64,000 bases of DNA from Novosphingobium sp. SG919 (GTDB taxonomy: Bacteria; Pseudomonadota; Alphaproteobacteria; Sphingomonadales; Sphingomonadaceae). A program made the position numbers and the translations under genes. Of the stretch, positions 1 to 20,928 are shown one piece after another. The DNA is taken from positions 1-64,000 of the forward strand of contig NZ_JABCNG010000007.1 of the NCBI RefSeq assembly GCF_012932495.1, read 5' to 3'. The number at the start of each line of letters is the position of its first letter. Positions within the stretch are counted from its first letter, which is position 1. A model generated the notes under the pieces. That model did no database searches and was not told where the DNA came from. It was given only the letters and a program-made list of their open reading frames with translations.

Positions 1-1169
1 CCAGCCGACTCCCACGCCTCGCGAGCCACGCCCAGCATCGCGCTCTTGCCGGTGCCGGCATAGCCGATGACACTGCTGATCCCGCGTGCATCGGTGACAT
101 GCTCCAACGCGCCGCGCTGTTCAGGCGAGAGCACCATGCCGCGTTGCTCGGCGTGGGTGAGCGCGCGTTCCAGGTGACGGTCATTGACGCCGTGGTGGCG
201 CCGCGCGTCCAGCGAGATGGTCGCACGCTCCAACCGCTGTTCGGTCTCCAGCATCGAGCGCGAGGTGAAACGGTCCTCGCCGCGCCCGTCAGGTCCCAGA
301 CGGACAAGATCGGGCGAGCCTCGCACCGCCGCCAGCACGGCGTCGAACTGGTCCTTGCCCTCGCTGTGGCGGTGCACGAACGTGGCAAGGTCGCGGTTGG
401 TGAACGTGGCCTGCTGGTGGGTAATGGCATCGAGCGCGATGCCGGGATTTTCGAGGATCTTCTCGCCATTGCTTCTGGCAATGGCAAAATGTTCTTCCAG
501 CCGCTCGCGCGCCAGGCCTTCCTGCGCCATGCGCGCAGCGGCTGGGCCGATCTTGTTCTGAGGCTCCAGGTCAATGCCCTGGGCCTCCAAGCTGCGGTGA
601 TCGATCCGTGCATCGATATCGAGCTGGGCCAGCCGTTCATTGACGTGCTCGGCCCAGGCTTCGCGCCAGTGGGTCAGGAGCTCGGTTCTGTTCCACTCGC
701 GCACTTTGGCGCCGAAGCCATCCGCTCCAACTTCGCGCATCCCCAGCATGACATGGGCATGGGGCTTGGCGAGGCCGTCCGGTCCCACATCCCAGTGCAC
801 ATTGAGATCGGCCACCATGCCTCGGTCGACGAATTCCTTTTGCACAAAGTCCCGCGCCAGTGCGATGCCATCGGCCTGGGTCATTTCGCGCGGAATGGCG
901 AACTCGATCTCGCGGGCCAGTTGCGCGTCCTTGCGCACTTCGACAGCTTCGACCTCGTTCCACAGCTTCGCCCGGTCGCACCATTCCTCCGGCGCGCCTT
1001 CGGGCAGCATGACTTCGCTGTGCACGACACCGGTCTTGTTGGAGAAATCGTGGTGCCGATCGAGCCGCTGATCATAGAGCCGATCGGCGGAGCGATAGGC
1101 AGCGGCGGCCACGGCGCTCGAGCCGGCACCGCGCGAAATGACTTTGGCCGAGAAATGGTAGATCGCCAT
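1..1169 (-). CDS. traA: Conjugative relaxase/helicase TraA (MOBQ family), 3' part missing at window edge
   Basis: Nicks oriT, stays covalently bound to the transferred strand and unwinds it during conjugation. The gene starts at 1169 on the minus strand and runs off the left edge, so 389 N-terminal residues are visible. They begin MAIYHFSAKVISRG, as in MobA/TraA relaxases. Tyr25 sits in AAAAYRSA, the position of the catalytic tyrosine of RSF1010/R1162 MobA. Metal-binding histidines appear as H125 and the PHAH motif around 137-139. A Walker A motif (GYAGTGKS, about residues 366-373) opens a RecD-like helicase domain that continues outside the window. The divergent traC/traD genes and the oriT just upstream match the Ti-plasmid layout. 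Short ORFs on the opposite strand here are shadows. Family assignment is firm; total length is unknown. Confidence 0.93.
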   Translation of the reverse strand, partial: MAIYHFSAKVISRGAGSSAVAAAAYRSADRLYDQRLDRHHDFSNKTGVVHSEVMLPEGAPEEWCDRAKLWNEVEAVEVRKDAQLAREIEFAIPREMTQADGIALARDFVQKEFVDRGMVADLNVHWDVGPDGLAKPHAHVMLGMREVGADGFGAKVREWNRTELLTHWREAWAEHVNERLAQLDIDARIDHRSLEAQGIDLEPQNKIGPAAARMAQEGLARERLEEHFAIARSNGEKILENPGIALDAITHQQATFTNRDLATFVHRHSEGKDQFDAVLAAVRGSPDLVRLGPDGRGEDRFTSRSMLETEQRLERATISLDARRHHGVNDRHLERALTHAEQRGMVLSPEQRGALEHVTDARGISSVIGYAGTGKSAMLGVAREAWESA

Positions 1170-1194
1170 GGCGACGCACCAGATACGCCTAAAA

Positions 1195-1230
1195 GCGCAC
1201 GTCGGCACGACGTATAAGCGCGCCCTCAAA
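1195..1230 (+). other. oriT: Origin of transfer (oriT), MOBQ type
   Basis: A 6-bp inverted repeat ACGTCG-GCA-CGACGT (1199-1213) is followed directly by ATAAGCGCGCCCTC (1214-1227). From memory, the Ti-plasmid oriT has the same plan: an inverted repeat ending CGACGTATAA, then TTGCGCCCT. RSF1010 has a repeat followed by AAATGCGCCCT. The nick is expected inside the GCGCCCT core, by analogy next to 1222/1223. It lies 30 bp upstream of traA and before traC, the usual place. The comparison is from memory, not from an alignment. Confidence 0.8.
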
Positions 1231-2159: not shown

Positions 2160-2238
2160 GAGCTGGCGGCAATACCAAGGGAACTGGCAAAACTTCACGG
2201 CATGGCCATCTCGAAAGGCGCAATTCTAAGTGCGAGGG

Positions 2239-2880
2239 ATGATGAACACCGAAGGCCTTGATCCGCATCTGCTGCATGCTTGGCTCGCCGCGCGATCGCT
2301 GGCGCGCGGGTTGCCCATGCCGGTGCCCGAGCATGGCGGTTTTCGCGTCGATACCGGATCGGAAATGGAAACTGTCCGCTGGGTGTTTCCGCAGATGTGT
2401 GATGGGCTCAAGGACGTCGCACGCAGAATCCATCAGTTGCGCCAGTTCGTGAAGGTCTGCGACACGGCAGAGGCCTTGCGTGCCGCGCTGCCCGCGCACT
2501 GGACCGTCCATGCGCCCAGCTATGTGATGCGCGCTAATGGCACAATGCCACGCCGACAACTCGCGGACGGATACTCTATCGCGGTCGAGCAGTCTGGCCC
2601 CGTGACGTCGGTCCGCATTGTCACAGACACCGGCATCTTGGTAGCCAGCGGCTACGGAGCCGAGACGCTTGGTGTCTTCGTCTACGACCGAATTGTGACC
2701 GAGCCAGAGCATCGCCGCAAAGGCTTGGGTAATGTCCTCATGCAGACCCTGCACGAGGCTAGGCGCGATCCCCACAGTTTCGAACTGCTAGTCGCCACCG
2801 ACGATGGCCGGGCACTCTATCAAACGCTGGGATGGGAGAAGATCGCGTCCTACGCTAGCGCTTCGATTATAATGGCGTAA
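2239..2880 (+). CDS. GNAT-family N-acetyltransferase
   Basis: Predicted acetyl-CoA-dependent acetyltransferase of 213 residues. The GNAT core is C-terminal: VYDRIVTEPEHRRKGLGNVLM carries the acetyl-CoA motif A (RRKGLG), and ALYQTLGWEK near the end is the typical final strand. The N-terminal half, with MEKTVRWVFPQMCDG-like sequence, has no domain I recognise. Tandem ATGs occur at 2239 and 2242, with an in-frame GTG at 2230; I chose 2239. No partner gene of a toxin-antitoxin pair is adjacent, so a TacT-like toxin is possible but unsupported. Substrate unknown. It lies between the transfer genes and the nuclease cassette. Confidence 0.75.
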   Translation: MMNTEGLDPHLLHAWLAARSLARGLPMPVPEHGGFRVDTGSEMETVRWVFPQMCDGLKDVARRIHQLRQFVKVCDTAEALRAALPAHWTVHAPSYVMRANGTMPRRQLADGYSIAVEQSGPVTSVRIVTDTGILVASGYGAETLGVFVYDRIVTEPEHRRKGLGNVLMQTLHEARRDPHSFELLVATDDGRALYQTLGWEKIASYASASIIMA

Positions 2881-3246
2881 TCGCCGTCAGCCGGGGGCAA
2901 CTCACGACCAAAAATACGCCGTTCCAATCCAGCGCTAGGGATGTCGAATCATGCTGACAGCTGCCGGTCAGTATACGCAAAACGGCGTGTCGGCTGGCGC
3001 GCGTCCCATCTTCGATCGCTCAGCTAGTTCCGTGCTGATCCTGAAAACCACCGTTTGCGATCGAACCGCCTAGCAGCGTGGTGAGGGTCGATTATGACTT
3101 GCCCGCTTTAAAGAGATGGTCGCCGAAGTCGAACTTTCATTCATGCGATTTGCGGGCCGGTGTCATTTCCTCCGCTTGTTCGGAGCGACCGATGCGAGGA
3201 TTTCCTGTTCTTCGCACGCGGTCAAAAACGAGATACAATCGACCGG
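2881..3246. other. Intergenic stretch without a supported gene
   Basis: This interval of 366 bp separates the acetyltransferase from the nuclease cassette. Short ORFs here (for example one beginning at 3078) show no family pattern and no good ribosome binding site. Base composition falls towards AT from about 3100 onward, which marks the start of DNA that looks foreign even to the rest of the element. I see no terminator or repeat in it. Confidence 0.5.
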
Positions 3247-3972
3247 ATGACAGCACCAAAGCCGCCCGCAACCTTGCGCGCCCGATTTGAGGCCTTCGTG
3301 AAAACACTCGAAGGTTTCGAGGACATCGACACGCTCTTAAAAAGTCGGGATGTTCCGGGGAAAAAGCGCGCGGACTATCTGTTCCAAAATCGCTCGATCA
3401 TCGTTGAGCAAAAATCGCTGGAAATTGATCCGGCGGACAAGCCCCAAAAATTCGTGGAGCAACTCATTAAGGAGGGGAAGCTCATGTTTTGGGGGGCTCT
3501 CTCGACGGAGGCCATTTTTCGCAGAATGCCCAATGGCGATGACTTGCGGGAACAGCTTGCTCTCAAGATCGGAAAAGTCGTCAGCGACAATGTGGAATAC
3601 GCGGACAAACAGTTCCGCGACACACGGGAGATTTTCAATATCCCCGGGGCTGGCAGCATCCTTGTCATTCTCAACGAGGATGCGACGACGCTCTATCCCG
3701 ACATCGTTACCTATGCTCTGACAAACACCTTTCAAAAGAAAGTCGAGGATGAATATCGGTATCGCAACGCAGACGGCGTACTTCTGATTTCTGAGGCGCA
3801 CCCGGTAGAAACCCCAGGGTTCCAGAAATCATTCCCGATCCAACCGTATGTGGCTCCCGCCACAGAAAACAGCAGCGACGTGAGCGCGTTCATGAAAATG
3901 ATGGCGACCCGCTGGGCGCAATTCAATGGCGCCGCGTTCATCCGTGCACGGGCGGGAGCGTCGAAGTCGTGA
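3247..3972 (+). CDS. Putative PD-(D/E)XK-like nuclease, first gene of a two-gene cassette
   Basis: A 241-residue protein I cannot assign to a named family. Residues about 35-55 read KKRADYLFQNRSIIVEQKSLE. An Asp on one strand, then hydrophobic IIV leading into E-Q-K, looks like the D...(D/E)XK core of restriction-endonuclease-fold enzymes; this is my inference. The remainder is mixed alpha/beta with no membrane segment or signal peptide. ATG 3247 is chosen because the upstream extension to 3160 is not protein-like. Its stop overlaps the GTG start of the HNH gene (GTGA, 3969-3972), so the two are translationally coupled. GC is lower than in the neighbours, which suggests separate acquisition. 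It could instead be a non-catalytic partner. Confidence 0.6.
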   Translation: MTAPKPPATLRARFEAFVKTLEGFEDIDTLLKSRDVPGKKRADYLFQNRSIIVEQKSLEIDPADKPQKFVEQLIKEGKLMFWGALSTEAIFRRMPNGDDLREQLALKIGKVVSDNVEYADKQFRDTREIFNIPGAGSILVILNEDATTLYPDIVTYALTNTFQKKVEDEYRYRNADGVLLISEAHPVETPGFQKSFPIQPYVAPATENSSDVSAFMKMMATRWAQFNGAAFIRARAGASKS

Positions 3973-5183
3973 GATATCACACAAACCCATCTACGCTTTG
4001 CATATTCTGCGACAACGCGCTGACACGAGAAACCGCGCCTGAACATATTTTGCTGGATGCTTTCGGCGGCCGCATGACCACAAAACGGGCGATTTGTACG
4101 GTTTGCAATAACCGGTTCGGCGGCTCAATCGACAAGGCTTTTGCGGAGCAGGCCGCGCATTTACGTAACATGTTTCAGATGCCTTCCGGCTCGGGGAAGA
4201 GGCCGCCGGGAATACGTAATGTCGACGTCATTGGCGGCGAGAAACTCGAACTTTTGCCGGACGGAACGCCGCAGCAGCGTTCGAAACCCTTTAGGGTCAC
4301 CAAGAATGATAGCGGCTCGTTCGACATCGCCATTTCCGTTCGCTCGCTCGACGAAGTGGCTCGGTTTGTCCCCGACATCGCGGCGCAGACCAGCAAGTCG
4401 GTCGATGAGATCTGGAAAGTCCTCGAAGGTACCGAGGCGACTGTTATTTCGAGGCCGGCGGGTGTGCTGAATTTTCAGCTGAGTTTCGGCGGCACTGACC
4501 CGATGCGTTCCATCGTCAAATCCTGCCTTGTGCTGTTGGCAACAGGCGTGGGCTCCGACGCGCTCAAGGGCGAGCCGTTCGCGGCGGCGCGTGCGTTCGT
4601 GATGAATGGCGGCGATGAATTTAATCTTGCGCGCTGCGTGATTGATGGCCGACCGATGCCTCAGGATGTGGCAGAGGCTCTCGCGGCGGACTTCGGGCCC
4701 ATCTTCAATCTCATCGTGGTGAAGAGCGACAATAGCGGCCGGATGGTTGGCTATTTCGTTCTGTACAACCTCTATGGTTGGGAAGTTTGCCTCGCTGAAT
4801 GCGGTGCGCCGCTCGATGTCAACTTCGCCCTGGCGTCCAATCCGTTGGCGCCACAAAGTTGGAGTGCGAACCCCGCTGCGGCGTTGGCACTCGATTTTGA
4901 ATGGTTGGCCGCCGCCAATGACGAAGGGATCGAAGAAGAGGCCCTTCGACGGATTTCGGCGGCAATGAAACATCAGTTTCCTGTCGCGCAGGCTCGGGCG
5001 CGGAAACGAGAGACGGGACGCATCGTTCATGAGGTGCTCTCCCGCCACGCCGTTGATGGGTTCATTCCTGACGAGACCGATGCCAAATTCCGTTTTTCAA
5101 GCGAACTGGCTCACCGAATGGCCCATTTCCTCTTGGGAATACCACTGGAGGAAAACGTTAAAGTGCAGCGCCCTGACGGATAG
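3969..5183 (+). CDS. HNH endonuclease (HNH_5-like) with large uncharacterised C-terminal region
   Basis: A 404-residue protein whose first 55 residues form a zinc-bound HNH fold: C11-x-x-C14, then E25-H26, a glycine pair at 33-34, and C43-x-x-C46-N-N-x-F-G. This is the HNH_5 pattern (CxxC...EHI...GG...CxxCN). The remaining 350 residues match nothing I know and may recognise DNA or sense infection. Start is GTG 3969 inside the stop of the preceding gene, so both products are probably made together. A plain restriction enzyme is less likely because no methyltransferase is nearby. I infer a phage- or plasmid-targeting nuclease pair; only the HNH fold is seen directly. Confidence 0.75.
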   Translation: MRYHTNPSTLCIFCDNALTRETAPEHILLDAFGGRMTTKRAICTVCNNRFGGSIDKAFAEQAAHLRNMFQMPSGSGKRPPGIRNVDVIGGEKLELLPDGTPQQRSKPFRVTKNDSGSFDIAISVRSLDEVARFVPDIAAQTSKSVDEIWKVLEGTEATVISRPAGVLNFQLSFGGTDPMRSIVKSCLVLLATGVGSDALKGEPFAAARAFVMNGGDEFNLARCVIDGRPMPQDVAEALAADFGPIFNLIVVKSDNSGRMVGYFVLYNLYGWEVCLAECGAPLDVNFALASNPLAPQSWSANPAAALALDFEWLAAANDEGIEEEALRRISAAMKHQFPVAQARARKRETGRIVHEVLSRHAVDGFIPDETDAKFRFSSELAHRMAHFLLGIPLEENVKVQRPDG

Positions 5184-5407
5184 CTTGACTCAACCTGCTG
5201 TTCGGCGGATCGCGCTCATATTACTGCTTCATCCCGCGCGCTTGCGGCAGCAGGCGACCTACTCAAAACATTCCGCGCTATTGATGTGAGCGGCGGCTCT
5301 TGCTGAAACCCGCCATTCTCGCCAACAAGCCGGTTGGCTTTGCGCCTCAGTATCGGTCATTCAAAGCGCCAGCTGCCCGACCTAAAAGCCGTCATCCATT
5401 CATCTGA

Positions 5408-5554
5408 ATGGCGATCTACACGATGGATGAAAACCTGTATAGCCGGTTGGAGCGGTGCCTCAAAGAAATCGAACATTTGTTGGGTTACGCCGAAGCGGCA
5501 GGGACACGCGGTAATGTCGGTTGTTTGCTCGAAACGATGTCCGACCTCGCTTAA
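5408..5554 (+). CDS. Small ORF (48 codons) between HNH and SIR2 genes
   Basis: Begins MAIYTMDENLYSRLERC and ends ETMSDLA. The composition (Glu, Leu, Lys, Arg in an amphipathic pattern over residues 6-32) fits one helical hairpin and looks like real protein. No recognisable ribosome binding site precedes it, and I know no family for it. It ends 40 bp before the SIR2 start codon and could be a regulator or antitoxin-like partner of either neighbour. The remaining sequence 5184-5407 shows no other gene. Confidence 0.4.
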   Translation: MAIYTMDENLYSRLERCLKEIEHLLGYAEAAGTRGNVGCLLETMSDLA

Positions 5555-5594
5555 AGAGGATGGACGGCACTTGGTTCTGAGCCGTAATGACTAG

Positions 5595-8500
5595 ATGCAG
5601 TTCATTCCCAACGGACCCTCGATCCCCGACGAGTTGCTTGTTGCCCGTGATGCGGGTGACGTCATCTTCTTTTGCGGCGCGGGCGTCTCCCAGCATGAGG
5701 CGGGCCTCCCCAATTTCGAAAGGCTCGGCCGCAACGTCATCGATATCCTCGGCGCCGCCGTGGACAGCCCGGCGCGCTCGCTTCTCACCAAGGCACTGGA
5801 GATGGGACGCATGGCCGGCGTCGGCGGGCTGCTCGCGACCGACCGCGTCTTCGGGCTGCTCGAGCGCGAGTTCGAGGTCGCCGATGTGCGCTCAGCGGTC
5901 GCCGAGGCCATTACGCCCAAGGCGGGCGCGGGACTTAGCGCCCACCGCACCCTCCTAACCCTCGCGACGTCACGGGCCGGCGTCACCCGATTGGTCACCA
6001 CCAATTTCGATCTGCTTTTCGAGGCCTGCGACCCGAGCCTCGCCTGCTCGGGCCCGCCGCGTTTACCCGATCCTCGGAGCGACCAAGACTTTCGCGGTAT
6101 CGTGCACCTCCATGGCCGCGTCACCCCTGATTATCGCCGGCCGGCCGATGAGGAATTCGTCGTCTCAAGCGCCGATTTCGGACGGGCCTATCTGTCCGAC
6201 GGCTGGGCGACCCGCTTTATCCAGTCGCTCCTTTCTCGCTTTCAGATCGTGTTCGTCGGCTACACTGCGGAAGACCCGCCGGTCCAATATCTGCTGGAAG
6301 CGCTAAACCTGCAGCCAGGCACCCGTAAGCGCCTCTACGCCTTCCAGGATGGCGAAAGCGAAGCCGCCAAGGCCCTATGGGAGCACAAGGGCGTCCAGGC
6401 GATCCCCTTCGACAGCAGCAAGGGCTTTGAGCCGCTCTGGGATACGCTGGCAGCATGGGCCGACCGTGCCAGCAATATCGAAGGTTGGTATGACGAACTA
6501 CTCGCCCATGCGCTGGCCGGACCGATGGCGCTCGATCCGCATACACGCGCTCAGGTCGCCGAGATTATGTCGACCAGCGAGGGCGCGCGGCGGTTCGCGA
6601 CCGCCGAGACGACGCTTGATGCGCGCTGGCTTCTCGTGTTCGACCCGGCGCACCGCTTTGCGAGCCCCGACCATATCGAGCCGCACCTCGACGAAACGCC
6701 CAAATTCGATCCGTTCAGCGCCCTCGGCCTTGCGACAGATCCCGTGCCCGATCCGGACACCGCCGACGACTATATGCGCAATCGCAAAGTGCCGAGCGAC
6801 GCGCTCGACATCTTCGCGGTTAGCCGCAGCGATGTCGATGACACGGCGGGAGCACTTGCCGGACTGCGCGGCAGTGCGGCCCTCGAACTAGCCGCGCTGC
6901 CGCCGCGCCTTAAAAGTCTGGGCATCTGGCTGCAACGTATCGCGCACCAGCCTATCACTCTTTGGTGGGCTGGGCACCAGGGCGCGCTTCACCCCGACGT
7001 CATGCACAGCATCGAATCCTGGCTTCGGCAGGAACCGAACCGATTTCCCGAGCATATCCGCCGGCAATGGCGGTGGTTCTTCGCCGCCCGGTCAGACGTA
7101 CGGCCCGATCCAGACCGGGTTCGCTACGATCTCGAGGCGCGAAGCCAGCAAGAGGGATGGTCGCCATCCATCGTCCGCACCTATGTCGATCTCTTCAAGC
7201 CGCAGATCACCGCGTCCAAGGCCTATGGCGTTCGCCACCCACTCTATTGGGAAGAGGAGGCGCCGGAGAAGCTGGTTCATCTTGATGTCGAGTATCCGCG
7301 TCCGCACGCGCCTCTACAGATACCCGACGAGCATCTGGCCTATGCGATCTCGATTCTGCGCGGGCATCTCGAACTGGCGGTTTCGCTGGAGCAAGAACTG
7401 ACGGGCAACGACTATCTGCATTTCGAACATACCCGGCCGGACGATGGAGGCCTCGCACTTGGGATCGGCGAATTTGGCATTCGCGGGCCGATTGCGATGT
7501 TCATCGAATGGATGGGGCGGTTGCAGGCGCTCAACCCGGTGGGGGCGCGCGCCGAGTTTCAGCGATGGTCGACCGATGACCCCTACGTCTTTGCCCGCTT
7601 GCGCATCTGGGCAGTGGCTAACCGGATCATCAATCCCGACGAGGGTGCGTCGGCCCTGCTATCCCTGTCGGACGTGTTGTTCTGGTCGAGCCATCACCAG
7701 CGCGACCTTCTTTACGCGATCCGCGACCTCTGGCCTGACCTGTCCGCGGCGTCGCGCACGGCCATTGAGCAGCGGCTGCTCACGACGACATACCCGTGGA
7801 CCAGTGAGGTGCGGGGCGGGCCGGACCGCGCAACAGCCCATTATCGGTTGAGCCGGCTGCACTGGCTTGTCTCTCAGGGCGTGACGTTCGGCTTCGATGT
7901 CGATGCTGAGCAGGCTAGGCTGCGGGCGTTCGATCCGGATTGGATGCCGGTCATTGGCGATCACGCCGCAGATTCCCACGCGCCGGAAGTCTATTCGATC
8001 GAAACCGACACCACACCTGATGCTATCCTCGAAACTCCGATCCCCGATATCCTGGCCGCCGCCCGGGAAGCGGGAGGCCGCGCCGACTTCTTCTCTCATA
8101 TCGAGCGGGACCCGTTTCGTGGTCTGGCCGACGCGCGGCCGCTCCGCGCTCTGGCTGCTTTGAACCATGTCGCGCGCTCGGGTGAGGCACCGCTTCACTC
8201 GTGGTCTGCGTTTCTCTACGCCGAAACGCGCCTAAAGGATTCGGTGCGGATGATCGCGCTGATCGCCGGTCGCTTGCGGCAGCTGCCGCCAGCGTTGCTG
8301 CTCGGCATTGCGTATCCGGTATCGGACTGGATGCAGCGCATCGGACACAGGTTCTACGGCGATGCCGCTGCTGTACTCCCGGCGTTATGGGACACGGTAG
8401 TTAGCGCACTCGCAATCTTCGGCGAAACCCGCCCGCATCCTCCCGATCAGAGCTGGGCCGACGATGCGCTGAAAGCACCGGTCGGCCGGCTCGCTCGGCT

Positions 8501-9392
8501 GCTGCTCGCCGATCCGATGAAGGACAACCGCGTCGTCGGAGGCGGTTTCCCTGAGTTATGGAAACAGCGCGCCGACCAGCTTCTGGCGCTTCCCGGCGAT
8601 CACCATCGCCATGCACTAGTCATGCTCGGCGCCCATTATGTCTGGCTCTTCAACGTCGATCCGAAATGGACACACTGCGCTATCCTGCCGGCGATCGCCA
8701 GTGGCGACGCCGATGGCGACGCTGTCTGGGATGGTATCTTCTGGACTGGTCGGCTGCCGTCGCGCGACACGTTTGCGCTTATCAAGCCAGGGCTGATCGC
8801 ACGCGCCCGACAAGGTGGCGCGCGGCGCAAGAGCAACAATGTCATTTCCGGCATGCTGCTCGGCGGCTGGGGTGGCGAGGCCGATGCCGCTGAACCCGAG
8901 CGGCTTTTGACCGATGCCGAGTTGCGGGAAGTGCTGATCCATGCCGATGACGAACTGCGCGGTAAGTTTCTCTGGCACCTCAGCCACTTCTCGAACAACA
9001 TACAGACGCGTTGGCCCGAGCGGCTCGTGCCGTTCCTGCGCACCGTCTGGCCTAAGCAGCGGGCGCTCCGAAATCCAAGCGTCTCTGCGCGCCTGGTCGA
9101 TCTGGCCCTAGGCAGCGGCGATCAGATGCCCGCTGTGGTCGAGGTAATCCTGCCTCGGCTCGTGCCCACCCGATCGACATCGATGCACATGATGCTGGTT
9201 ACCAGCGATGGTTCGTCGCACCCGGCCTATCGCTATCCAGCGGCATTGCTCGATCTCTTATGGGCCGTGCTCAGCGACGACGTGCAGCAATGGCCTTACA
9301 AGATCGAAGAGGCGCTCGACCGCCTGAGTGAAGATCCGGTAGTGGGATCAGACTCACGCCTTGCCGAGCTCAGGCGACGGCGCCAGCGCTGA
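5595..9392 (+). CDS. SIR2-domain protein, putative defence-associated NADase (DSR-like)
   Basis: A 1265-residue soluble protein with an N-terminal sirtuin-type NAD-binding domain. Visible motifs are FFCGAGVS (25-32) with GLPNF (37-41), TTNFD (135-139), the catalytic His in HLHGR (171-175) and VGYTAEDPP (221-229). The rest, about residues 300-1265, has no domain I can name and is probably a long helical sensor region. Size and layout match phage-defence sirtuins such as DSR1 and DSR2, which deplete NAD+ when they sense phage proteins. That role is inferred from family knowledge and the neighbouring nuclease genes. Start ATG 5595 has no strong Shine-Dalgarno sequence. No HerA or Argonaute partner is adjacent, so it may act alone. 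Confidence 0.82.
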   Translation: MQFIPNGPSIPDELLVARDAGDVIFFCGAGVSQHEAGLPNFERLGRNVIDILGAAVDSPARSLLTKALEMGRMAGVGGLLATDRVFGLLEREFEVADVRSAVAEAITPKAGAGLSAHRTLLTLATSRAGVTRLVTTNFDLLFEACDPSLACSGPPRLPDPRSDQDFRGIVHLHGRVTPDYRRPADEEFVVSSADFGRAYLSDGWATRFIQSLLSRFQIVFVGYTAEDPPVQYLLEALNLQPGTRKRLYAFQDGESEAAKALWEHKGVQAIPFDSSKGFEPLWDTLAAWADRASNIEGWYDELLAHALAGPMALDPHTRAQVAEIMSTSEGARRFATAETTLDARWLLVFDPAHRFASPDHIEPHLDETPKFDPFSALGLATDPVPDPDTADDYMRNRKVPSDALDIFAVSRSDVDDTAGALAGLRGSAALELAALPPRLKSLGIWLQRIAHQPITLWWAGHQGALHPDVMHSIESWLRQEPNRFPEHIRRQWRWFFAARSDVRPDPDRVRYDLEARSQQEGWSPSIVRTYVDLFKPQITASKAYGVRHPLYWEEEAPEKLVHLDVEYPRPHAPLQIPDEHLAYAISILRGHLELAVSLEQELTGNDYLHFEHTRPDDGGLALGIGEFGIRGPIAMFIEWMGRLQALNPVGARAEFQRWSTDDPYVFARLRIWAVANRIINPDEGASALLSLSDVLFWSSHHQRDLLYAIRDLWPDLSAASRTAIEQRLLTTTYPWTSEVRGGPDRATAHYRLSRLHWLVSQGVTFGFDVDAEQARLRAFDPDWMPVIGDHAADSHAPEVYSIETDTTPDAILETPIPDILAAAREAGGRADFFSHIERDPFRGLADARPLRALAALNHVARSGEAPLHSWSAFLYAETRLKDSVRMIALIAGRLRQLPPALLLGIAYPVSDWMQRIGHRFYGDAAAVLPALWDTVVSALAIFGETRPHPPDQSWADDALKAPVGRLARLLLADPMKDNRVVGGGFPELWKQRADQLLALPGDHHRHALVMLGAHYVWLFNVDPKWTHCAILPAIASGDADGDAVWDGIFWTGRLPSRDTFALIKPGLIARARQGGARRKSNNVISGMLLGGWGGEADAAEPERLLTDAELREVLIHADDELRGKFLWHLSHFSNNIQTRWPERLVPFLRTVWPKQRALRNPSVSARLVDLALGSGDQMPAVVEVILPRLVPTRSTSMHMMLVTSDGSSHPAYRYPAALLDLLWAVLSDDVQQWPYKIEEALDRLSEDPVVGSDSRLAELRRRRQR

Positions 9393-9638
9393 TCCACTGT
9401 AAGCGCAGCCGGTGAGGGAGGAAGCCTGACCCTGAGGACGAGCCCAGGGCGTCATCCTAAGCCTCCCCGCGCGAATAAGTGCTAAACGTCGGCTTCTGAC
9501 AAGAGCTGACGCTAAACCCGCGGCACGGGAACGATGGGGTTTGTCCCAGATTTGGACCATGCGGATGAAAAGCCGTTCAATGCGCGAAATCAACGCGCCG
9601 GCTATTCCTCACCCGGCCTGCCGCGCGGTCTCCTCCAG

Positions 9639-9839
9639 TTGGGCGATGCGTTCCGAACAGATGGCATAGATGACACCGCTTCCGCCGTCATCCTCTGCGT
9701 CATAGAGCGCGCGCCGCAATGGATCAGGCACGATCTGGATGCCAAGGACGAGGCCATTTGCACCCGTGCTGAAGAAACCCTGGCTGCGATGATTGCCAAT
9801 GCGCTGCGCGAAGAGTCGAGTGAGGCTGGCGCGGCCTAA
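9639..9839 (+). CDS. Small conserved hypothetical protein, paralogue 2
   Basis: In-frame sequence VIERAPQWIRHDLDAKDEAI followed by TRAEETLAAMIANAL is clearly homologous to the product at 1992-2159. The start is unresolved: TTG 9639 gives 66 residues; the ORF stays open to an ATG at 9534 but that extension looks non-coding. The two copies are diverged, so this is not a recent duplication. It may be a degraded or alternative-start copy. Function unknown. Confidence 0.5.
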   Translation: MGDAFRTDGIDDTASAVILCVIERAPQWIRHDLDAKDEAICTRAEETLAAMIANALREESSEAGAA

Positions 9840-10245
9840 AGCCGCCCGCCGCATCGGTACTCTCATGATGTATCTCCGGCGCTGGATCGGCCGCGCAGGA
9901 ACCTTTTGAGCATCCTCGCCCGAGAGCTGAAGGCGCGCGCGCCACTTTTCCATAAATCACGCAAAAACTTGGCGCGCGGATTGGCGTCTGGTATCGTGGG
10001 ACCGCGCTGCGCAAAGGGCAGCGCCGGGACTGGTAATCCCGCCTGTAACGCAAACTCGGAGAACACGGTTTTCCGGGGTGTCGCGGCGTATGTCCAGACC
10101 TTCGGGTTAAAGGCGGCGACGCATGTCACAGGCATGTTACCAGCTCCGGCGGCTCCCGCGCGCAAGCGTGCGGGAGCTCGGGGTCAGTCCGCGTGATGAC
10201 CTGAGACCTTCCGCTTCCCGCTTCTGACGCGGACCGGAGGTACAT
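9840..10245. other. Intergenic stretch with a stem-loop
   Basis: About 400 bp without a supported gene; overlapping ORFs on both strands (9906-10196 plus, 9863-10165 minus) look like GC-rich noise. At 10152-10177 there is a hairpin with arms GCTCCCGC and GCGGGAGC but no following T-run. A strong Shine-Dalgarno GGAGG at 10236-10240 belongs to the gene starting at 10246. Confidence 0.45.
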
Positions 10246-10830
10246 ATGGACACGATCGTTCCTGCTACTTCATCCCACCTTGGCGCCCCCGCGCTGGGCG
10301 CTGCCATCATCACGTTGCCGAGCGAGAATTCCGAACTAGGTGCGCTGTGGCGACGTTACGACGCGCGGCCCGTTCGGCTCCTGCGCACGCGCGAAGGCCG
10401 TGCACTCAGCCTGGATCGCTATCAGCGCGCCGGCGAGTTCATGAGTTCGCTGGTCTCACCCATGGCTGATGACACTGCCTATTTGTTCTATTCTGCCGGC
10501 ATCGTCGCGCAGCTGGCGATGTCGTCGCACCTACTCGACGTGGGTTTTCCCGATGCGTGGTGCGCCAAGTACATCGGCCTCCATGTCGATCGTTCCCTGG
10601 CCTACGCCAACGCCACGGCTTTCGGCTGCGACGATGCCGAGACCGAGCGGCTGATGGACGTGCTCTCGCCCTACTGGAAATGGAACGACCTTAGCCGCGC
10701 CCACGGCATCAAGCCTGACACGGGAGGCTTTGCCGCCGGGCAGGTTCGCGACATCATTACCGGGCTGGTAGACCATGTCGCCGAAGTGACCGGGCACGGC
10801 CGACGCAAGCAGCGCCAGGCGCCGTCCTGA
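10246..10830 (+). CDS. Conserved hypothetical protein of the mobile element
   Basis: A 194-residue soluble protein without a domain I recognise. The start is well supported: GGAGG five bases before ATG 10246. The sequence has an acidic and hydrophobic centre (YLFYSAGIVAQLAMSSHLLD around 85-104), then WCAKYIGLHVDRSLAYANATAFGCDDAE, and a basic tail (GRRKQRQAPS). Its codon use matches the transfer genes rather than the AT-richer cassette at 3.2-5 kb, so I take it as element backbone. No signal peptide or membrane segment. Function unknown. Confidence 0.65.
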   Translation: MDTIVPATSSHLGAPALGAAIITLPSENSELGALWRRYDARPVRLLRTREGRALSLDRYQRAGEFMSSLVSPMADDTAYLFYSAGIVAQLAMSSHLLDVGFPDAWCAKYIGLHVDRSLAYANATAFGCDDAETERLMDVLSPYWKWNDLSRAHGIKPDTGGFAAGQVRDIITGLVDHVAEVTGHGRRKQRQAPS

Positions 10831-11114
10831 TCGGTCTCGCCGCACCAGGCTGATTCGCGCGGTGATACCGATTGGCGGGCAATGGACTGCGCGACACGAT
10901 TGAATCTGGCTGTTATCCAGCTACGCAGCGCCTGCTCGCAAAATTTTTTTGGTGTTCGTGCGAGGTCGTGTCGGTGCGCTTCGGTATACCGGGCAGCCTG
11001 CTGGCGGCAGATGCCGCTTGCCCTGGATTCTCAGGTGGTTGCGCTTTTCCCGCAACGCCCCAATTCTACTCGTGGCCGGCCAATCCAACCCAGGAAACAG
11101 GAAGGATGTGCCAC

Positions 11115-11324
11115 ATGAATACCGCCTCTCCCAATTCCTTCGTGCGTCTGCCCCAGGTGCTCAAGGAAACCGGACTTTCGCGCGCGACGCTCTATCGCAA
11201 GGTCCATGACGGGACCTTCCCCAAACAGTCGCGCATCGCCACGCGCTGCGTGGGCTGGCGTCGCAGCGCGCTCGACCAGTGGCTGCAGAACCCCATGTTC
11301 TATTCCGTCGACGACTTTACCTGA
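11115..11324 (+). CDS. AlpA-family DNA-binding regulator
   Basis: A 69-residue helix-turn-helix protein. FVRLPQVLKETGLSRATLYR at residues 10-29 is the winged MerR/AlpA-type motif, followed by HDGTFPKQSRIATRCVGWR and ALDQWLQ, the usual AlpA end. ATG 11115 follows a purine-rich AGGAAACAGGAAGG leader; the longer frame from 10872 is not needed. AlpA proteins act as excisionase-like or regulatory factors for P4-type integrases, so this is the likely partner of the integrase at 19437-20687, although not adjacent to it. Confidence 0.85.
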   Translation: MNTASPNSFVRLPQVLKETGLSRATLYRKVHDGTFPKQSRIATRCVGWRRSALDQWLQNPMFYSVDDFT

Positions 11325-11379
11325 TGGGCCCCGCACAATGGTGCCGCCCGATGGCAAGTCATCGGGCGGCCTGAATTTT

Positions 11380-11655
11380 TCACCATGGCCACCAGCGCTG
11401 CCACCAGTGCCCATAGACGGCGCGGGCCAGGGTTGAGAGGGCCTTAGCCAGCTCGGCCTGCACCGCCTCGACACTGATGCCATGGCGCTGGGCCAGCTCG
11501 GCATAGCTGGCACCCTCGAAGCGCACGGCCCCAAAGATCGCGCGCTGCCGCCTGGTCATCCGACGTAAGCCGCGCTGACCCCGGCGCCAGAACGTGCGCG
11601 GCGAGATCGGCGGCAGGACGGGCGTGCCCCATTCGGGCGGAAGAGGCCGGCTCAT
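11380..11655 (-). CDS. Small sigma-70 region 4-like DNA-binding protein
   Basis: A 91-residue protein whose C-terminal half MTRRQRAIFGAVRFEGASYA, then ELAQRHGISVEAVQAELAKA, is a region-4-type helix-turn-helix as in RNA polymerase sigma factors. No region 2 is present, so it cannot be a complete sigma factor; it is more likely a transcriptional regulator of the element. The tail is rich in tryptophan (HWWQRWWPW), which is unusual. Its start codon at 11655 overlaps the ardC stop by four bases (ATGA), so it is translated from the ardC message. Confidence 0.7.
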   Translation of the reverse strand: MSRPLPPEWGTPVLPPISPRTFWRRGQRGLRRMTRRQRAIFGAVRFEGASYAELAQRHGISVEAVQAELAKALSTLARAVYGHWWQRWWPW

Positions 11656-12557
11656 GGCCGGTCCTCCCCCCAGGCCAGCAGGAAATCGGCAGCCTTGCTG
11701 GCCGCACTGGCAGCGCGGAAGATCGCCTTCTCGTCGGCACACAACACTTCCAGCCACGCGCCGACGTAATCAGAGTGCCGCACCGTCGGCACAATGCCCA
11801 GCGCGGCACAGGCAAAGGCACTGGCCATTTCCGCAACAAGTTCCTCTTTTGCGTAGGACGCAGAACCAAACTTGCCGGTCTGGTCCCGGTCCAGCCGGCT
11901 CTTGTGGCCGGAGGCATGCCCTAGTTCGTGCAGCGCTGTGCGGAACCAGTTGATCGGCTCGGGGAAGGCAGCCTGGGGCGGCACCTGCACCACGTCATGG
12001 GTGGGGGAATAGAACGCTTCCCCGCCCCCGATGCGGAAGGTCACCCCGCTGTTCTGGATCACGCGGTCCGCACCAGCAATCGCCAGTTCGGGCGCAATCG
12101 GTGCCACAGGCTGCACCATGTCGTCAGGCAGGTCCTCGCACTGGTCGAGATTGAACACGGTAAAGCGCTTCAGAAATGCCACCGTGCGCGCTTCGCGGTC
12201 TTCGTCTCGGGCCTTGGCAGCTTCCTCGCGCGGGGTGAAGCGATCAGCATAGCAGACCACCGTGCCCTTCTCGCCGCGCCGGACATGGCCCCCGGCTGCT
12301 TCGGCCTGACGATAGGTCAGCCAGCGCTGCGAGGAAAAGCCCTGCTCGATGGCAGAGGTCCACAGAATGAGAATATTTATGCCTGAGTAGGTCCGGCCAG
12401 AGCCGGCATTGTGGGGCAACGTGCAGGGACAGCGACTGGCGTCCCAGGGCTGCACCCAGGGCAGACGCCCGGCTTCGAGTTCGGCAATGATGCGGGACGT
12501 CACCTCGGCATAGAGGGACTGGCGTTCACGCGTATTCACGGTGCTCATGATCTTCAA
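11652..12557 (-). CDS. ardC: Antirestriction protein ArdC
   Basis: Single-stranded-DNA-binding antirestriction protein that shields incoming plasmid or ICE DNA. The 301 residues show the ArdC plan: an N-terminal DUF1738 domain (LYAEVTSRIIAELEAGRLPW, 15-34; NAGSGRTYSGIN, 50-61) and a C-terminal metallopeptidase-like domain with HELGH at 210-214 followed by the third ligand region KEELVAEMASAFACAALGI. A second possible start, M4, lies at 12548. It is encoded away from the GC-rich leader 12558-12892 and is coupled to the downstream sigma-like gene. Fits a conjugative element entering restriction-proficient hosts. Confidence 0.92.
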   Translation of the reverse strand: MKIMSTVNTRERQSLYAEVTSRIIAELEAGRLPWVQPWDASRCPCTLPHNAGSGRTYSGINILILWTSAIEQGFSSQRWLTYRQAEAAGGHVRRGEKGTVVCYADRFTPREEAAKARDEDREARTVAFLKRFTVFNLDQCEDLPDDMVQPVAPIAPELAIAGADRVIQNSGVTFRIGGGEAFYSPTHDVVQVPPQAAFPEPINWFRTALHELGHASGHKSRLDRDQTGKFGSASYAKEELVAEMASAFACAALGIVPTVRHSDYVGAWLEVLCADEKAIFRAASAASKAADFLLAWGEDRP

Positions 12558-13117
12558 GCTCCTTAAACCGCCATGGCCCGGCGCCGGGGTGGCGGGGGGC
12601 GGCAGGAGCGGACCGACAGCCCCGCATCAGGCGGCGGGGTGCATCCGAAGGAGCGCAACAGCGTGGAGCACCCGGAGCCGCGCAGCGGGCCGGGTTGCGC
12701 CCCGTCGCGGCGGGGCTACAGGGCCGTGACGCCCCCCGTCACCTCGGAGCCGAGGCAAACGCCGCCGCGCACCCACAGCGCGGCGACAACCGGACAGGAG
12801 CCAAAGGCGGACCGACGGGGCCGGCCAACAGGGCCGGGCCAAGTGTCAGCGATCGTACCGGCCATGACTAACTAGACGGGAGAGTTGGCTCGGTGGGAGC
12901 ACAACGGAACGAGGACGTGACGCGATCGCGCGCGATGATCGAAAGTTATCTTTTATGCTATGGCGTCAACTGGCGTGAAGTTAGCGCAATGAGACCGTTT
13001 CCGGCGGGCGGTTCTCTATGGCTTCTCCGGCTGACAAAGGAAGGCTTTCCCCAAAGACTTGCGCCGATCTGTTCTTCTTATGTTTGCGATTGCAGGCCGA
13101 TCGTCTATGCTCGAACA
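12558..13117. other. GC-rich leader and intergenic region upstream of ardC
   Basis: 560 bp with no convincing gene. The first 300 bp are very GC-rich with short CGGGGC/GCCCCG runs that could fold extensively; an ORF at 12573-12875 consists mainly of Gly, Arg and Pro and is probably artefactual. From about 12890 the composition becomes AT-richer, and this part probably holds the promoter of the rightward operon starting at 13118. Confidence 0.45.
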
Positions 13118-13432
13118 ATGGAAAATCGGCGCAACCTTATTTTGTCATTCGACGAAATACGCACAAGTTATCAGGCACGGGCAGTTCTAGACGTTCTAGC
13201 CAAGGAGCGGAGTGCCAACAGCTGCCTGCTCGATAAATGGCTTGCAGCAATCGGGCTGTCTGCATCGAGGCAGGCGATTTCCGATTTGCTCGATCGGCTG
13301 GAAAAGGAGGGATTAGTTCGACTGGAAACGGTCGATGATTTCCAGGTCGTCCATCTGCGGCGCCTCGGCGGCGACGTGGCATCTGGGCGTGAGATCCGGG
13401 ACTGGATCGCTAGGCCCGAACTTCCGGAGTGA
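13118..13432 (+). CDS. Winged-helix protein (VpaChn25_0724-like), first gene of a three-gene operon
   Basis: A 104-residue protein starting MENRRNLILSFDEIR. Residues 20-70 (ARAVLDVLAKERSANSCLLD, IGLSASRQAISDLLDRLEKE, GLVRLETVDD) form a winged helix-turn-helix like MarR or the phage-associated VpaChn25_0724 family, with the typical tail HLRRLGGDVASGREI. ATG 13118 is preferred to the longer frame from 12893, whose extension is not protein-like. The DUF6035 gene starts seven bases after its stop. I infer a transcriptional regulator or phage sensor for the operon. Confidence 0.65.
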   Translation: MENRRNLILSFDEIRTSYQARAVLDVLAKERSANSCLLDKWLAAIGLSASRQAISDLLDRLEKEGLVRLETVDDFQVVHLRRLGGDVASGREIRDWIARPELPE

Positions 13433-13439
13433 GCTGATC

Positions 13440-14870
13440 TTGGGCCGGCATCAACGCACCATCCTCATTGCAGATTTCGAATTGCCGCGCGGAGCCGTCA
13501 CGATCGAACAGTTGATGGCAATGCCCCGTGCCGGCTGGGAGCATTTGCGGACCCAGATCAATATGCGCCGCCGCGAGGATAAGGGCAGACCTTTAGCGAA
13601 GTGCCGGCTTTGCGAAGGTGGAATCTTCATCAGGGCGCAAGCTGATCGGGGCGACCATATCCCGATATACGCGCATTACCCCGAAGCAAGCAGAAATTGC
13701 CCTTGGTACGAAGGCAATAATCTGCGTGAGGACGATGCTCGCGCCGCTCAATACCAAGGGCATCAGGAGTCTGCGCTGCACCGGCGACTGTGCTCGACGA
13801 TTGAGCAATTGGTCAAAGCCGACCCTCGCTGTTCGCACAGCGCGGTGAACACCTATCTGCGACCAGAAATCCACAAGCGCGGTCGTTGGCCCGACGTCTT
13901 CGCGGACTTGAGCGGCCTGGGTCGCTTCGCGCTGGAAGTGCAGTTGTCTAAGCCGTTCGCTCCAGAAGTCGCTGCCCGCCACGTGCATTATGATGATGAG
14001 GGCATCGCATTGGTATGGATCTTCAGCACTCTTGAAGAACCGATGCCGCAGGGATTTCATGATGTCGTTGCCATGCAGCGAGGCAATGCCTTCGTATTCG
14101 ATGATGAGGCTGAGGCCGCTTCGATCGAGCGCGGCACCCTAGTTCTGAAATGCTTCATAGAAAATGGCCATGGCGGCTGGAGTGAACCGAGTCTGGTCTC
14201 GCTGGACGATCTGCAGACTGGCGCCGGTCGATCGGCATTTGTGGAAGATTGTCGATCCAAGGCACTGAAACAGCGGAGCAAGCAGGAGCGGGCGCGCTGG
14301 TGGGATGCTATGAAACTGGCCCGGGAAGAGCGACCGAACTCACCGGAATACAGCAACCACTACGAAGACCCGTGGTCAGATATGAAGTCGGGCGTTCCCG
14401 GTGTGTGGGAATGGGAGCGGGATTTCTGGATCGAGCGGTCCAACCGCGCCCGTGCTCACACGGCCGTGCTTTACGCGATCTTGTGTTCAGTGGCGCATAG
14501 CGCAGCCGCCCATCGCCCGATTCTCCACATCACCAAGTTTTCCGGCGAGAGTGCGGTATTATCCATGCTCAACAGCAAGCTGAGCGGATCCGACTTCATG
14601 CATTGCGCCAGCCTGATCGAGACCTTTGTGGGTTCGACTTCCCTATCTTACCTGCTCGAGAAGAATTCGCTCCGCCGGATCATTGCCGAAGCCAAGCAGA
14701 GCGAGGCTCAGGTGGATCAAGATCATGCCCTTTGGCGGATCATGGCCCGGCTTTTCCCGGAAGTGCTCGACGGTCTCGTGAGAGCAGAGTTGGCAGACCT
14801 CGGACAATTGCCCGACTGGGCGTCCCCACTATCGGCTGGGCCGGAAACTGAACTGGCGGTCGCGGGATGA
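13440..14870 (+). CDS. DUF6035 family CoiA-like putative nuclease
   Basis: A 476-residue protein combining a zinc motif and a nuclease-like core. CRLCEGGIFIRA and, 25 residues on, ASRNCPWYEG resemble the CoiA zinc ribbon. Then RGRWPDVFADLSG and RFALEVQLSK give the D...E-x-Q core of CoiA-type PD-(D/E)XK nucleases. The C-terminal 250 residues are unassigned. The start is TTG 13440, preceded by CCGGAG and seven bases after the regulator; no ATG fits. It overlaps the TIGR02391 gene by four bases (ATGA). Family name is from memory; the nuclease-like core is visible. Confidence 0.75.
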   Translation: MGRHQRTILIADFELPRGAVTIEQLMAMPRAGWEHLRTQINMRRREDKGRPLAKCRLCEGGIFIRAQADRGDHIPIYAHYPEASRNCPWYEGNNLREDDARAAQYQGHQESALHRRLCSTIEQLVKADPRCSHSAVNTYLRPEIHKRGRWPDVFADLSGLGRFALEVQLSKPFAPEVAARHVHYDDEGIALVWIFSTLEEPMPQGFHDVVAMQRGNAFVFDDEAEAASIERGTLVLKCFIENGHGGWSEPSLVSLDDLQTGAGRSAFVEDCRSKALKQRSKQERARWWDAMKLAREERPNSPEYSNHYEDPWSDMKSGVPGVWEWERDFWIERSNRARAHTAVLYAILCSVAHSAAAHRPILHITKFSGESAVLSMLNSKLSGSDFMHCASLIETFVGSTSLSYLLEKNSLRRIIAEAKQSEAQVDQDHALWRIMARLFPEVLDGLVRAELADLGQLPDWASPLSAGPETELAVAG

Positions 14871-15667
14871 AGAAGCTGTTTTCGCAAGCCGAACTCGAGG
14901 CGATCGCCGGAGCACTTGGCGATACCAATGTGGGTTTGCAGGGCGCCGAGATCGAAATGCTGATCGCCAGGTGCGAAATGACCGATCCTGGCCCGATCAC
15001 GAAGCGTGTCAGGATTTATAATGCGTTCGCCGAGAGCCAGAACCGGTGCGGTGATCGGACCCGCGTGCTCGGCTTCATTCGGAATGCGATGAAGCCGGCC
15101 CGCTATGTACGCGACCCGGATCGCTTCGAACCCATGCGGACGAGCCTGAATTTCGCGCTGGCCTTCGCCGGGCTGGTAGTCACAGAAGCCGGTGAAATCG
15201 AGGCGGTGACCGTCGCCACGACGTTGCCTGAGGCCCAACGACGCGCGAACGAATTGCGCTGCGACCTCGAAACGCGAGGCGTTCATAGGGACGTGCTGGC
15301 CTTTTGCCGGGCAGAGCTGGTCGCCGACGACTATTTCCATGCGGTGCAGGAAGCGGTGAAGAGCGTCGCTGCGAAAATGAGGGCTAAGACAGGATTGACC
15401 GATGATGGCTCGACACTTGTCGATCGTGCTCTGGGTGGAACGCCGCCGATGATCGCGATCAACCCGCTTTCAAGCGAAAGCGAACGGGGTGAGCAGCGGG
15501 GATTTGCAAATCTCGTCCGTGGAACTTTCGGGATGTTCCGCAACCCAACGGCGCATGAGCCTCGCATCCACTGGCCGATGTCGAACGGTGATGCCCAGGA
15601 TCTTTTGACGCTGGTCTCGTTGATACATCGCCGCCTCGATGCCAGCCATATGCCAGCCCGCGGATAG
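14867..15667 (+). CDS. TIGR02391 (Ymh) family protein
   Basis: A 266-residue protein whose C-terminal domain fits TIGR02391: YFHAVQEAVKSVAAKMRAKTGL (about 153-174), then DGSTLVDRALGG, PPMIAINPLSSESERGEQRG and GTFGMFRNPTAHEPRIHW. R-N-x-x-x-H here resembles the RNA-cleaving Rx4-6H motif of HEPN proteins, so an RNase-type effector role is plausible but inferred. The N-terminal 140 residues are unassigned. ATG 14867 overlaps the stop of the DUF6035 gene. Family members often sit in defence islands near restriction systems. Confidence 0.8.
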   Translation: MKKLFSQAELEAIAGALGDTNVGLQGAEIEMLIARCEMTDPGPITKRVRIYNAFAESQNRCGDRTRVLGFIRNAMKPARYVRDPDRFEPMRTSLNFALAFAGLVVTEAGEIEAVTVATTLPEAQRRANELRCDLETRGVHRDVLAFCRAELVADDYFHAVQEAVKSVAAKMRAKTGLTDDGSTLVDRALGGTPPMIAINPLSSESERGEQRGFANLVRGTFGMFRNPTAHEPRIHWPMSNGDAQDLLTLVSLIHRRLDASHMPARG

Positions 15668-15735
15668 TGGTCCAGGCAGGGCCAGCGTAACATTGGCCGT
15701 TGCCACTCTGCCATAACCACGGCTATCGATTCGGT

Positions 15736-16332
15736 ATGGCTTCGAGACCGCTTCGGGACAGTGATGTACGGCAAGCCGCCTATCGGCGGTTGCTCACGCA
15801 CGCCCAAGCTTGTCCTGACACCCTGGTCATTGACGAACTCGGCCTCGATCATGGCAGTTGTCGAATCGATATTGCGGTGATCAACGGCCACATTCGTGGC
15901 GTTGAAATCAAGGCGGAAGCCGACACCTTGGAGCGCCTGCCGAGGCAAGTGGCCGCCTACGGAGAGGTAGTCGACAAGGCCCTGTTGATCGTCGATCCCA
16001 AACATCTTGCGTCGGCCTTGACGATGGTGCCCGATTGGTGGGGCATCATGGTCGCAGAGCGCGGCACGACTCAAGGGGTGCGGTTCCGTCGCGTTCGACC
16101 GGAACGAGTAAACAAGGGCATCGATCCGCTCGTTCTGGCTCGTCTGCTGTGGCGGCCTGAAGCGCAGGCGATCCTCCGAAGCCTTGGCGTTTCGGAGCGA
16201 GAACTCCGCGCTCCACGCGCGACGCTCTACAAGATGTTGGTGGATAGGCTGCCGCTGCGTCGTCTCTCGAAGACTGTCCGCGAAACTCTCAAGGTCCGAA
16301 CATCGTGGCGAGATCGGCCACCACTTTTGTGA
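15736..16332 (+). CDS. sce7726 family protein, PD-(D/E)XK nuclease-like
   Basis: A 198-residue protein starting MASRPLRDSDVRQAAYRRLL. Residues 30-85 carry a complete PD-(D/E)XK signature: E in VIDELGL, D in SCRIDIAVI, E-x-K in RGVEIKAEAD and Q in RLPRQVAAYGEVVDK. This matches sce7726 proteins, which occur with sce7725 or beta-family proteins in phage-defence contexts. ATG 15736 is preferred over an earlier alternative start at 15700. It lies 68 bp after the TIGR02391 gene on the same strand, and its last 44 bp overlap the end of the convergent beta-family gene. Confidence 0.85.
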   Translation: MASRPLRDSDVRQAAYRRLLTHAQACPDTLVIDELGLDHGSCRIDIAVINGHIRGVEIKAEADTLERLPRQVAAYGEVVDKALLIVDPKHLASALTMVPDWWGIMVAERGTTQGVRFRRVRPERVNKGIDPLVLARLLWRPEAQAILRSLGVSERELRAPRATLYKMLVDRLPLRRLSKTVRETLKVRTSWRDRPPLL

Positions 16333-17374: not shown

Positions 17375-17385
17375 TTCGTCGCCCC

Positions 17386-20854: not shown

Positions 20855-20890
20855 TGGAGCGGGTGAAGGGAATCGAACCCTCGTATTCAG
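20855..20890. other. Predicted attachment site (att) at the tRNA-Gly 3' end
   Basis: P4-type integrases recombine within the 3' part of a tRNA gene and restore it. Position, orientation and the adjacent integrase point to the acceptor/T-arm segment of tRNA-Gly as the att core. The second copy should be off the left edge, so exact limits cannot be set. Confidence 0.45.
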
Positions 20891-20928
20891 CTTGGGAAGC
20901 TGCTGCTCTACCATTGAGCTACACCCGC
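20855..20928 (-). tRNA. tRNA-Gly (anticodon CCC)
   Basis: 74 nt with encoded CCA. On the minus strand: acceptor GCGGGTG paired with ACCCGC, D-arm GCTC-AATGGTA-GAGC, anticodon loop TTCCCAA (CCC reads GGG codons), T-arm AGGGTTCGATTCCCT. Very like E. coli tRNA-Gly(CCC), except that positions 27 and 43 are G and A, an unpaired top of the anticodon stem. It lies 37 bp downstream of dsbD on the same strand and serves as the integration target. Confidence 0.97.

Follow-up and report, generated by a model that had tools for sequence, protein, structure and literature searches.

Two overlapping genes near the left end of a 64,000-nucleotide stretch from Novosphingobium sp. SG919 (the window) encode putative nucleases of different fold types, and in the relatives that we examined the two genes live apart. 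The reading that we prefer, and whose chances of being right we rate as about even, is that genes 1 and 2 are nuclease-type genes independent of each other and stacked in mobile cargo, where they probably restrict foreign DNA. The features of the locus are as follows.

99..1217, minus strand: MobA/MobL relaxase, TraA-like, in the left element backbone
2230..2880, plus strand: GNAT acetyltransferase, first cargo gene; left cargo border at about 2243
2244..9542, no strand: approximate cargo slot, about 7.3 kb, with GNAT, gene 1, gene 2, and SIR2
3247..3972, plus strand: gene 1, 241 amino acids, ATG start, PD-(D/E)XK-like, PHROG 20483 family (D43, E54-x-K56, Q122)
3969..3972, plus strand: GTGA shared by the gene 1 stop and gene 2 start, read directly
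3969..5183, plus strand: gene 2, 404 amino acids, GTG start, HNH_5 domain at residues 11 to 61 and a C-terminal part common to relatives
5595..9392, plus strand: SIR2 protein, 1265 amino acids, Dsr1-like in the first ~360 residues
19440..20711, minus strand: integrase-like protein (PHROG 1 'integrase', 6.2e-59), beside tRNA-Gly
20855..20928, minus strand: tRNA-Gly (CCC), possible attachment site

The gene pair in the cargo slot of a mobile element

According to the original prediction, two genes overlapping by GTGA form a coupled pair and possibly a new defense cassette, one that has no methyltransferase and differs from its neighbors in base composition. The overlap was confirmed, and no methyltransferase was found in the seven genes scanned at 1 to 9.4 kb. 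The frame of gene 1 stays open upstream of its ATG, and the match to a Skermanella protein, which at 42% identity is the best gene-1 relative found, begins at residue 9. The G+C contents of gene 1 (0.539) and gene 2 (0.573) are below those of the surrounding pieces (0.613 to 0.65) and of the stretch at 21 to 64 kb (0.659). Thus, the predicted difference holds against the direct neighbors, but other parts of the window are equally low, for example at 13 to 15 kb (0.57 to 0.58) and at 36 to 38 kb (0.56 to 0.59). GC3 is 0.649 in both genes, compared to 0.736 in SIR2 and 0.71 in GNAT. Promoter and terminator scans yielded numbers close to the shuffle level (2 versus 1.3 and 6 versus 3.8, respectively).

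The window begins at the contig end, and TraD and DUF6771 genes lie to the left of the pair along with the relaxase gene. To the right, the tRNA-Gly gene is possibly the attachment site of the element. By blastn, the left backbone (1 to 1826 and 1992 to 2123) and the right backbone from 9957 are present in a related genome (G1045), in which 443 bases separate 2123 from 9957, versus 7.8 kb in the window, and ~0.9 kb separates 1826 from 1992, versus 165 bases; the cargo at 2244 to 9542 had no DNA match there. A sister copy on contig C12 of the window's own genome matched 1620 to 2243 and 9910 to 12892, the two matches being separated by 2.7 kb that holds other genes, and a further copy on contig C7 matched 9543 to 12913. 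The borders of these three sets of matches place the cargo at approximately 2244 to 9542. Read by eye, the sister-copy cargo consists of a membrane protein, cytochrome b561-like, and efflux genes and looks non-defense; location in the slot is thus by itself no proof of defense. An Rfam search of 1 to 21500 returned no intron family. DUF6771-like frames at 1956 to 2159 and ~9660 to 9839 (the second read by eye) flank the slot and may mark recombination borders. A second low-G+C cargo stretch at 13335 to 19340 is possibly another defense block; its contents are a weak CoiA-nuclease/DUF7830, Hypoth_ymh, Beta_protein (PF14350), an HTH plus an M78 peptidase (ImmA-like), and DUF6932.

The SIR2 gene starts 411 bases after gene 2 on the same strand. 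Against the Dsr1 equivalog model NF041818, its product scored 349.3 bits, below the cutoff of 1400, with the best stretch at residues 1 to 359, which suggests a diverged Dsr1-type gene. A relative on the Fuscovulum plasmid pRsa is 53% identical over the full length, and neither gene 1 nor gene 2 lies beside it in the annotated stretch.

Conserved cores of two putative nucleases

Gene 1 had no credible match in Pfam, NCBIfam, or PADLOC, and among nine family members scanned, none matched Pfam credibly or PADLOC at all. All of the first nine aligned members (9/9) match PHROG 20483, a group whose function is not assigned, and a literature search found no paper naming PHROG 20483 or the gene-1 protein accessions. 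To our knowledge, no activity has been described for the gene-1 or the gene-2 family.

A42, D43, E54, K56, A119, and Q122 are invariant in the first nine aligned members. When the alignment is widened to 22 rows, D43 (21/21), E54 (21/21), K56 (19/21), and Q122 (20/21) are retained, counted over rows with a letter and with the window included; these rows are not independent, as they hold three near-identical P2 copies and a G164 sequence that is split in two rows and nearly equal to that of G132. Both rows without K56 come from one genus (G460 and G556). A PD-(D/E)XK core has the look seen here, D-x10-E-x-K and then a Q-bearing helix. The D...E-Q-K core that had been proposed for gene 1 is kept in its relatives, in the form of the D...(D/E)xK catalytic core expected of a PD-(D/E)XK member, and the near invariance of D43, E54-x-K56, and Q122 favors membership in these enzymes.

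In the structure of gene 1 predicted from a four-row alignment (pLDDT 71.7, pTM 0.72), a strand carries ExK and a long helix carries Q122, and the order of elements is compatible with alpha-beta-beta-beta-alpha-beta. A Foldseek search with this model returned nothing at an E value of ≤0.001. With VIA-align, two acetyl-CoA carboxylases ranked at the top (Z 7.3 and 6.6), and all rows stayed below Z 8. PD-(D/E)XK enzymes make up about 16 of the 50 listed rows, at Z 6.4 or less and below the unrelated top rows; these include CdiA-CT (6.4), NucC (5.8), and BsaWI and Bse634I (both 4.9). A PDB sequence search gave two rows, none below E 0.6, and nuclease models had no match to gene 1. From the conservation pattern, the most likely product of gene 1 is a metal-dependent PD-(D/E)XK nuclease with D43, E54, and K56 as its catalytic core.

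The HNH_5 domain foreseen in gene 2 was recovered at residues 11 to 61 (PF14279; 39.7 bits against a cutoff of 27.5; E 4.6e-10), and the remaining ~340 residues had no credible model match. Counted over rows with a letter, window included, the HNH residues are retained as follows: C11, 9/9; C14, 8/9; E25, 7/9; H26, 9/9; C43, 7/9; C46, 8/9; and N47, 9/9. The closest relative found is a protein of Acetobacter sp. AC2005 plas1, 39% identical over 97% of the length. Fourteen plasmid records matched gene 2, and phage records did not; pattern scans of viral contigs with gene 2 and two relatives were also negative, a result of little weight for so diverged a family. Relatives extending beyond the HNH domain are few: among the 296 order genomes, G020 alone besides the window's own genome. 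The gene-2 profile matched in 81 of 289 class genomes, where nearly all of the matches listed cover only the ~45 HNH residues, and G401 and G337 were accepted as class-level relatives along with the own genome. A PDB sequence search produced weak rows only, three of them on the HNH domain (best 0.0061) and one a designed protein; RPB4 rows (0.0076 to 0.059) were taken for chance matches. A single-sequence structure model of gene 2 was discarded at a pLDDT of 40. The product of gene 2 is most likely an HNH nuclease whose large C-terminal part would serve substrate recognition. A profile-profile comparison detected no relation between genes 1 and 2. These results support the view that two predicted nucleases of different fold types form one overlapping unit with a defense-type neighbor.

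Examined relatives of the two genes live apart

Relatives of gene 1 are rare. With a single-protein query, they were found in 6 of 296 order genomes; with a profile, in 3 of 385 class, 4 of 398 phylum, and 6 of 229 family genomes, the window's own genome being counted each time and the four samples overlapping. Outside these samples, two plasmid records and two phage records carry relatives, two viral scans added seven viral contigs (six P2-like loci and one other), and the P2-like version occurs as a near DNA match in 27 of 5426 Escherichia coli genomes. Searches of genome contigs with gene-1 patterns found no relative, which carries little weight given that the family is too diverged for short patterns; two gene-1 queries used in the same way on viral contigs found none, a result of equally little weight.

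Using profiles of both families, we detected gene 2 at none of the 26 gene-1 loci outside the window (14 + 5 + 7; 16 distinct) and gene 1 at none of eight gene-2 loci. For the distinct count, nine P2-like copies, G132/G164 (97% identical over 8.5 kb), and the syntenic G460/G556 were each counted once, and the flanks examined spanned ~9 kb at best and 1 to 6 kb in shorter records. The side-by-side arrangement of a conserved two-gene system is thus not found in the relatives examined, and the proposal of a coupled new cassette is not supported. That homologues should never occur together had been named in the original prediction as an outcome that would refute it, and this is what was seen in a small, distant sample. 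Possibly, an obligate pair is confined to the window's lineage, as the sample is small and even the best gene-1 relative is distant. Literature searches for an HNH plus PD-(D/E)XK pair, HNH_5 in defense, and the P2-EC67 frame found no title or abstract on this pair. Overall, the original prediction was right about the genes and guessed their folds well, and it is partly supported as a whole.

HNH proteins of other kinds do occur next to gene-1 relatives. An HNH-motif open reading frame (ORF) adjoins gene 1 or its relative at 3 of 19 loci (17 distinct), namely, the window, G047, and Catenovulum; with the window removed, this becomes 2 of 18. The gene-1 flanks, 193 kb with the window, hold four HNH-motif ORFs, versus none in 380 kb of control stretches, which came from other parts of the contig in 11 of these genomes and are not mobile DNA. 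One such ORF of G047 is 27 bases upstream of the gene-1 relative and another is two genes downstream, while that of Catenovulum is ~340 to 380 bases upstream. The adjoining G047 protein resembles gene 2 in the HNH domain only (hhalign E 3.2e-5), and BLAST gave no match between the two. Since the excess rests on three loci, one of which was the starting point, it is only a hint, and a weak one, that gene-1 relatives tend to sit beside unrelated HNH proteins.

Several gene-1 relatives are found in defense-type settings, as counted without a matched control over the part of the neighbors that was scanned. Two full P2-like records carry the relative between gpA and gpQ, and a third, short record has the same gene order with the flanks absent; the gpA-gpQ region is described as a hotspot of anti-phage systems beside other functions (PMC9122126, section 10). 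In G047, a tight operon joins the relative to a TrlF-family ATPase (509.9 bits; cutoff, 350) and an HNH protein. This operon (L024, 3543 to 12252) comprises the TrlF ATPase, a 658-amino-acid protein, the HNH protein, the gene-1 relative, an AIG2-like protein, and a 498-amino-acid protein with an HNH-like motif. The G132 relative adjoins a 950-amino-acid protein that has a SEC-C motif and matches Cap4 nuclease and AAA weakly. G164, of a different genus, carries the same 8.5-kb block (L026, 1077 to 9611; L096, 9096 to 17626), which points to recent transfer; the gene-1 relative is split over two frames in L096. A TIR protein lies close to the gene-1 relative of G295, and a 306-amino-acid ORF of G860 weakly resembles that TIR protein (26% over 133 residues); both neighbors (L028, 7480 to 8745; L031, 5644 to 6561) accompany gene-1 relatives of one subfamily. 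Neighbors without a defense label include an aldo/keto reductase (L029) and an integrase with a MauJ-like protein (L025). At L097 (1565 to 9097), a 2511-amino-acid protein with a DnaG zinc ribbon, a weak Toprim match, and a weak reverse transcriptase match lies upstream of the gene-1 relative, and nearby ORFs were read by eye as conjugation ATPases. As for gene 2, three of the five plasmid loci read have restriction-modification, toxin-antitoxin, or Abi genes near the relative.

Competing explanations and known systems

Two nuclease genes can overlap neatly without forming a single system. We consider it unlikely that the two genes form an obligate two-nuclease defense system, cooperating, for example, as a sensor-nicker and a second-strand cutter. 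The GTGA overlap, the equally low GC3, the absence of both genes from G1045 (a relative without the cargo), and the excess of other HNH-motif ORFs at G047 and Catenovulum would fit such a system, and the first two of these also count against our preferred reading, as they are equally what a real unit would show. It is opposed by the complete separation of the two families at the 26 and 8 loci, by the restriction of the G047 likeness to the HNH domain, and by an HNH excess that shrinks to two loci once the window is excluded and was gauged against non-mobile DNA. A looser version, in which the gene-1 family would be a previously undescribed PD-(D/E)XK module teaming with varied HNH proteins (HNH_5 in the window, the HNH of the G047 TrlF operon, and that of Catenovulum) into interchangeable dual-nuclease defense units, we hold to be quite improbable.

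We are similarly disinclined to a non-defense role, with a homing-like HNH and a toxin-like PD-(D/E)XK protein serving the mobile element as selfish or maintenance nucleases. The apparent mobile element around the window genes, the plasmids and P2-like prophages that hold several relatives, the CdiA-CT toxin/immunity entries among the VIA-align rows for gene 1 (Z 6.4 and 5.5), and the non-defense look of the sister-copy cargo are consistent with it; the lack of an intron family in the Rfam search of 1 to 21500 and the defense-type genes adjoining several gene-1 relatives argue against it. A three-gene system, in which SIR2 would be an NAD-depleting effector and the two nucleases would play accessory roles, appears highly improbable: the genes share strand and cargo, and SIR2 follows closely on gene 2, but neither gene 1 nor gene 2 accompanies the full-length SIR2 relative in the annotated part of pRsa, and the GC3 of SIR2 departs from theirs.

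Under the preferred reading of independent genes, two separately evolved nuclease-type accessory genes would have ended up in one transcription unit, presumably cotranscribed, within the cargo of a mobilizable element of the integrative kind. Gene 1 would cleave as a metal-dependent PD-(D/E)XK nuclease through D43, E54, and K56, with Q122 on the following helix, and gene 2 as an HNH nuclease, with its large C-terminal part recognizing the substrate. The probable target of each protein is foreign DNA, attacked with no methyltransferase partner in the way of type IV or solitary restriction nucleases, and the two may add to protection provided by the neighboring SIR2 gene. Besides the overlap and the common GC3, this reading has against it the lack of a described activity in either family, of a significant fold match, and of a nuclease-model match for gene 1, the non-defense look of the sister cargo, and the unlabeled neighbors of several gene-1 relatives. 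Gene 1 is a testable candidate from a rare nuclease-like family. Nine members scanned gave no match in Pfam or PADLOC, and members are present in the P2 defense hotspot as well as beside defense-type genes in some alphaproteobacterial genomes. If the protein is active, PHROG 20483 would gain a function, as would a gene of P2-like E. coli prophages.

Among known systems, ORF226 of the P2-like coliphage P2-EC67 shares the protein family of gene 1 (PHROG 20483), but it is only ~22% identical and has no HNH gene annotated next to it. Gene 2 is akin to the solitary HNH_5 (PF14279) plasmid endonucleases represented by the Acetobacter sp. AC2005 plas1 protein, whose gene differs in having no gene 1 beside it. 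The cognate methyltransferase of a restriction-modification system was missing from the seven genes scanned at 1 to 9.4 kb. Septu pairs an ATPase (PtuA) with an HNH protein (PtuB). G047 resembles Septu and TrlF operons in that its gene-1 relative lies with the TrlF-family ATPase and with an HNH protein weakly similar to PtuB; in contrast, no ATPase match was found in genes 1 and 2, GNAT, or SIR2 of the window, no PtuA-type ATPase adjoins a PtuB-type HNH protein, and genes 1 and 2 have no PADLOC match. The SIR2 neighbor stays far below the cutoff for the anti-phage sirtuin Dsr1 (349 versus 1400 bits) and has diverged in its remainder, but it matches Dsr1 over the first ~360 residues and is of nearly the same length (1265 versus 1263 amino acids).
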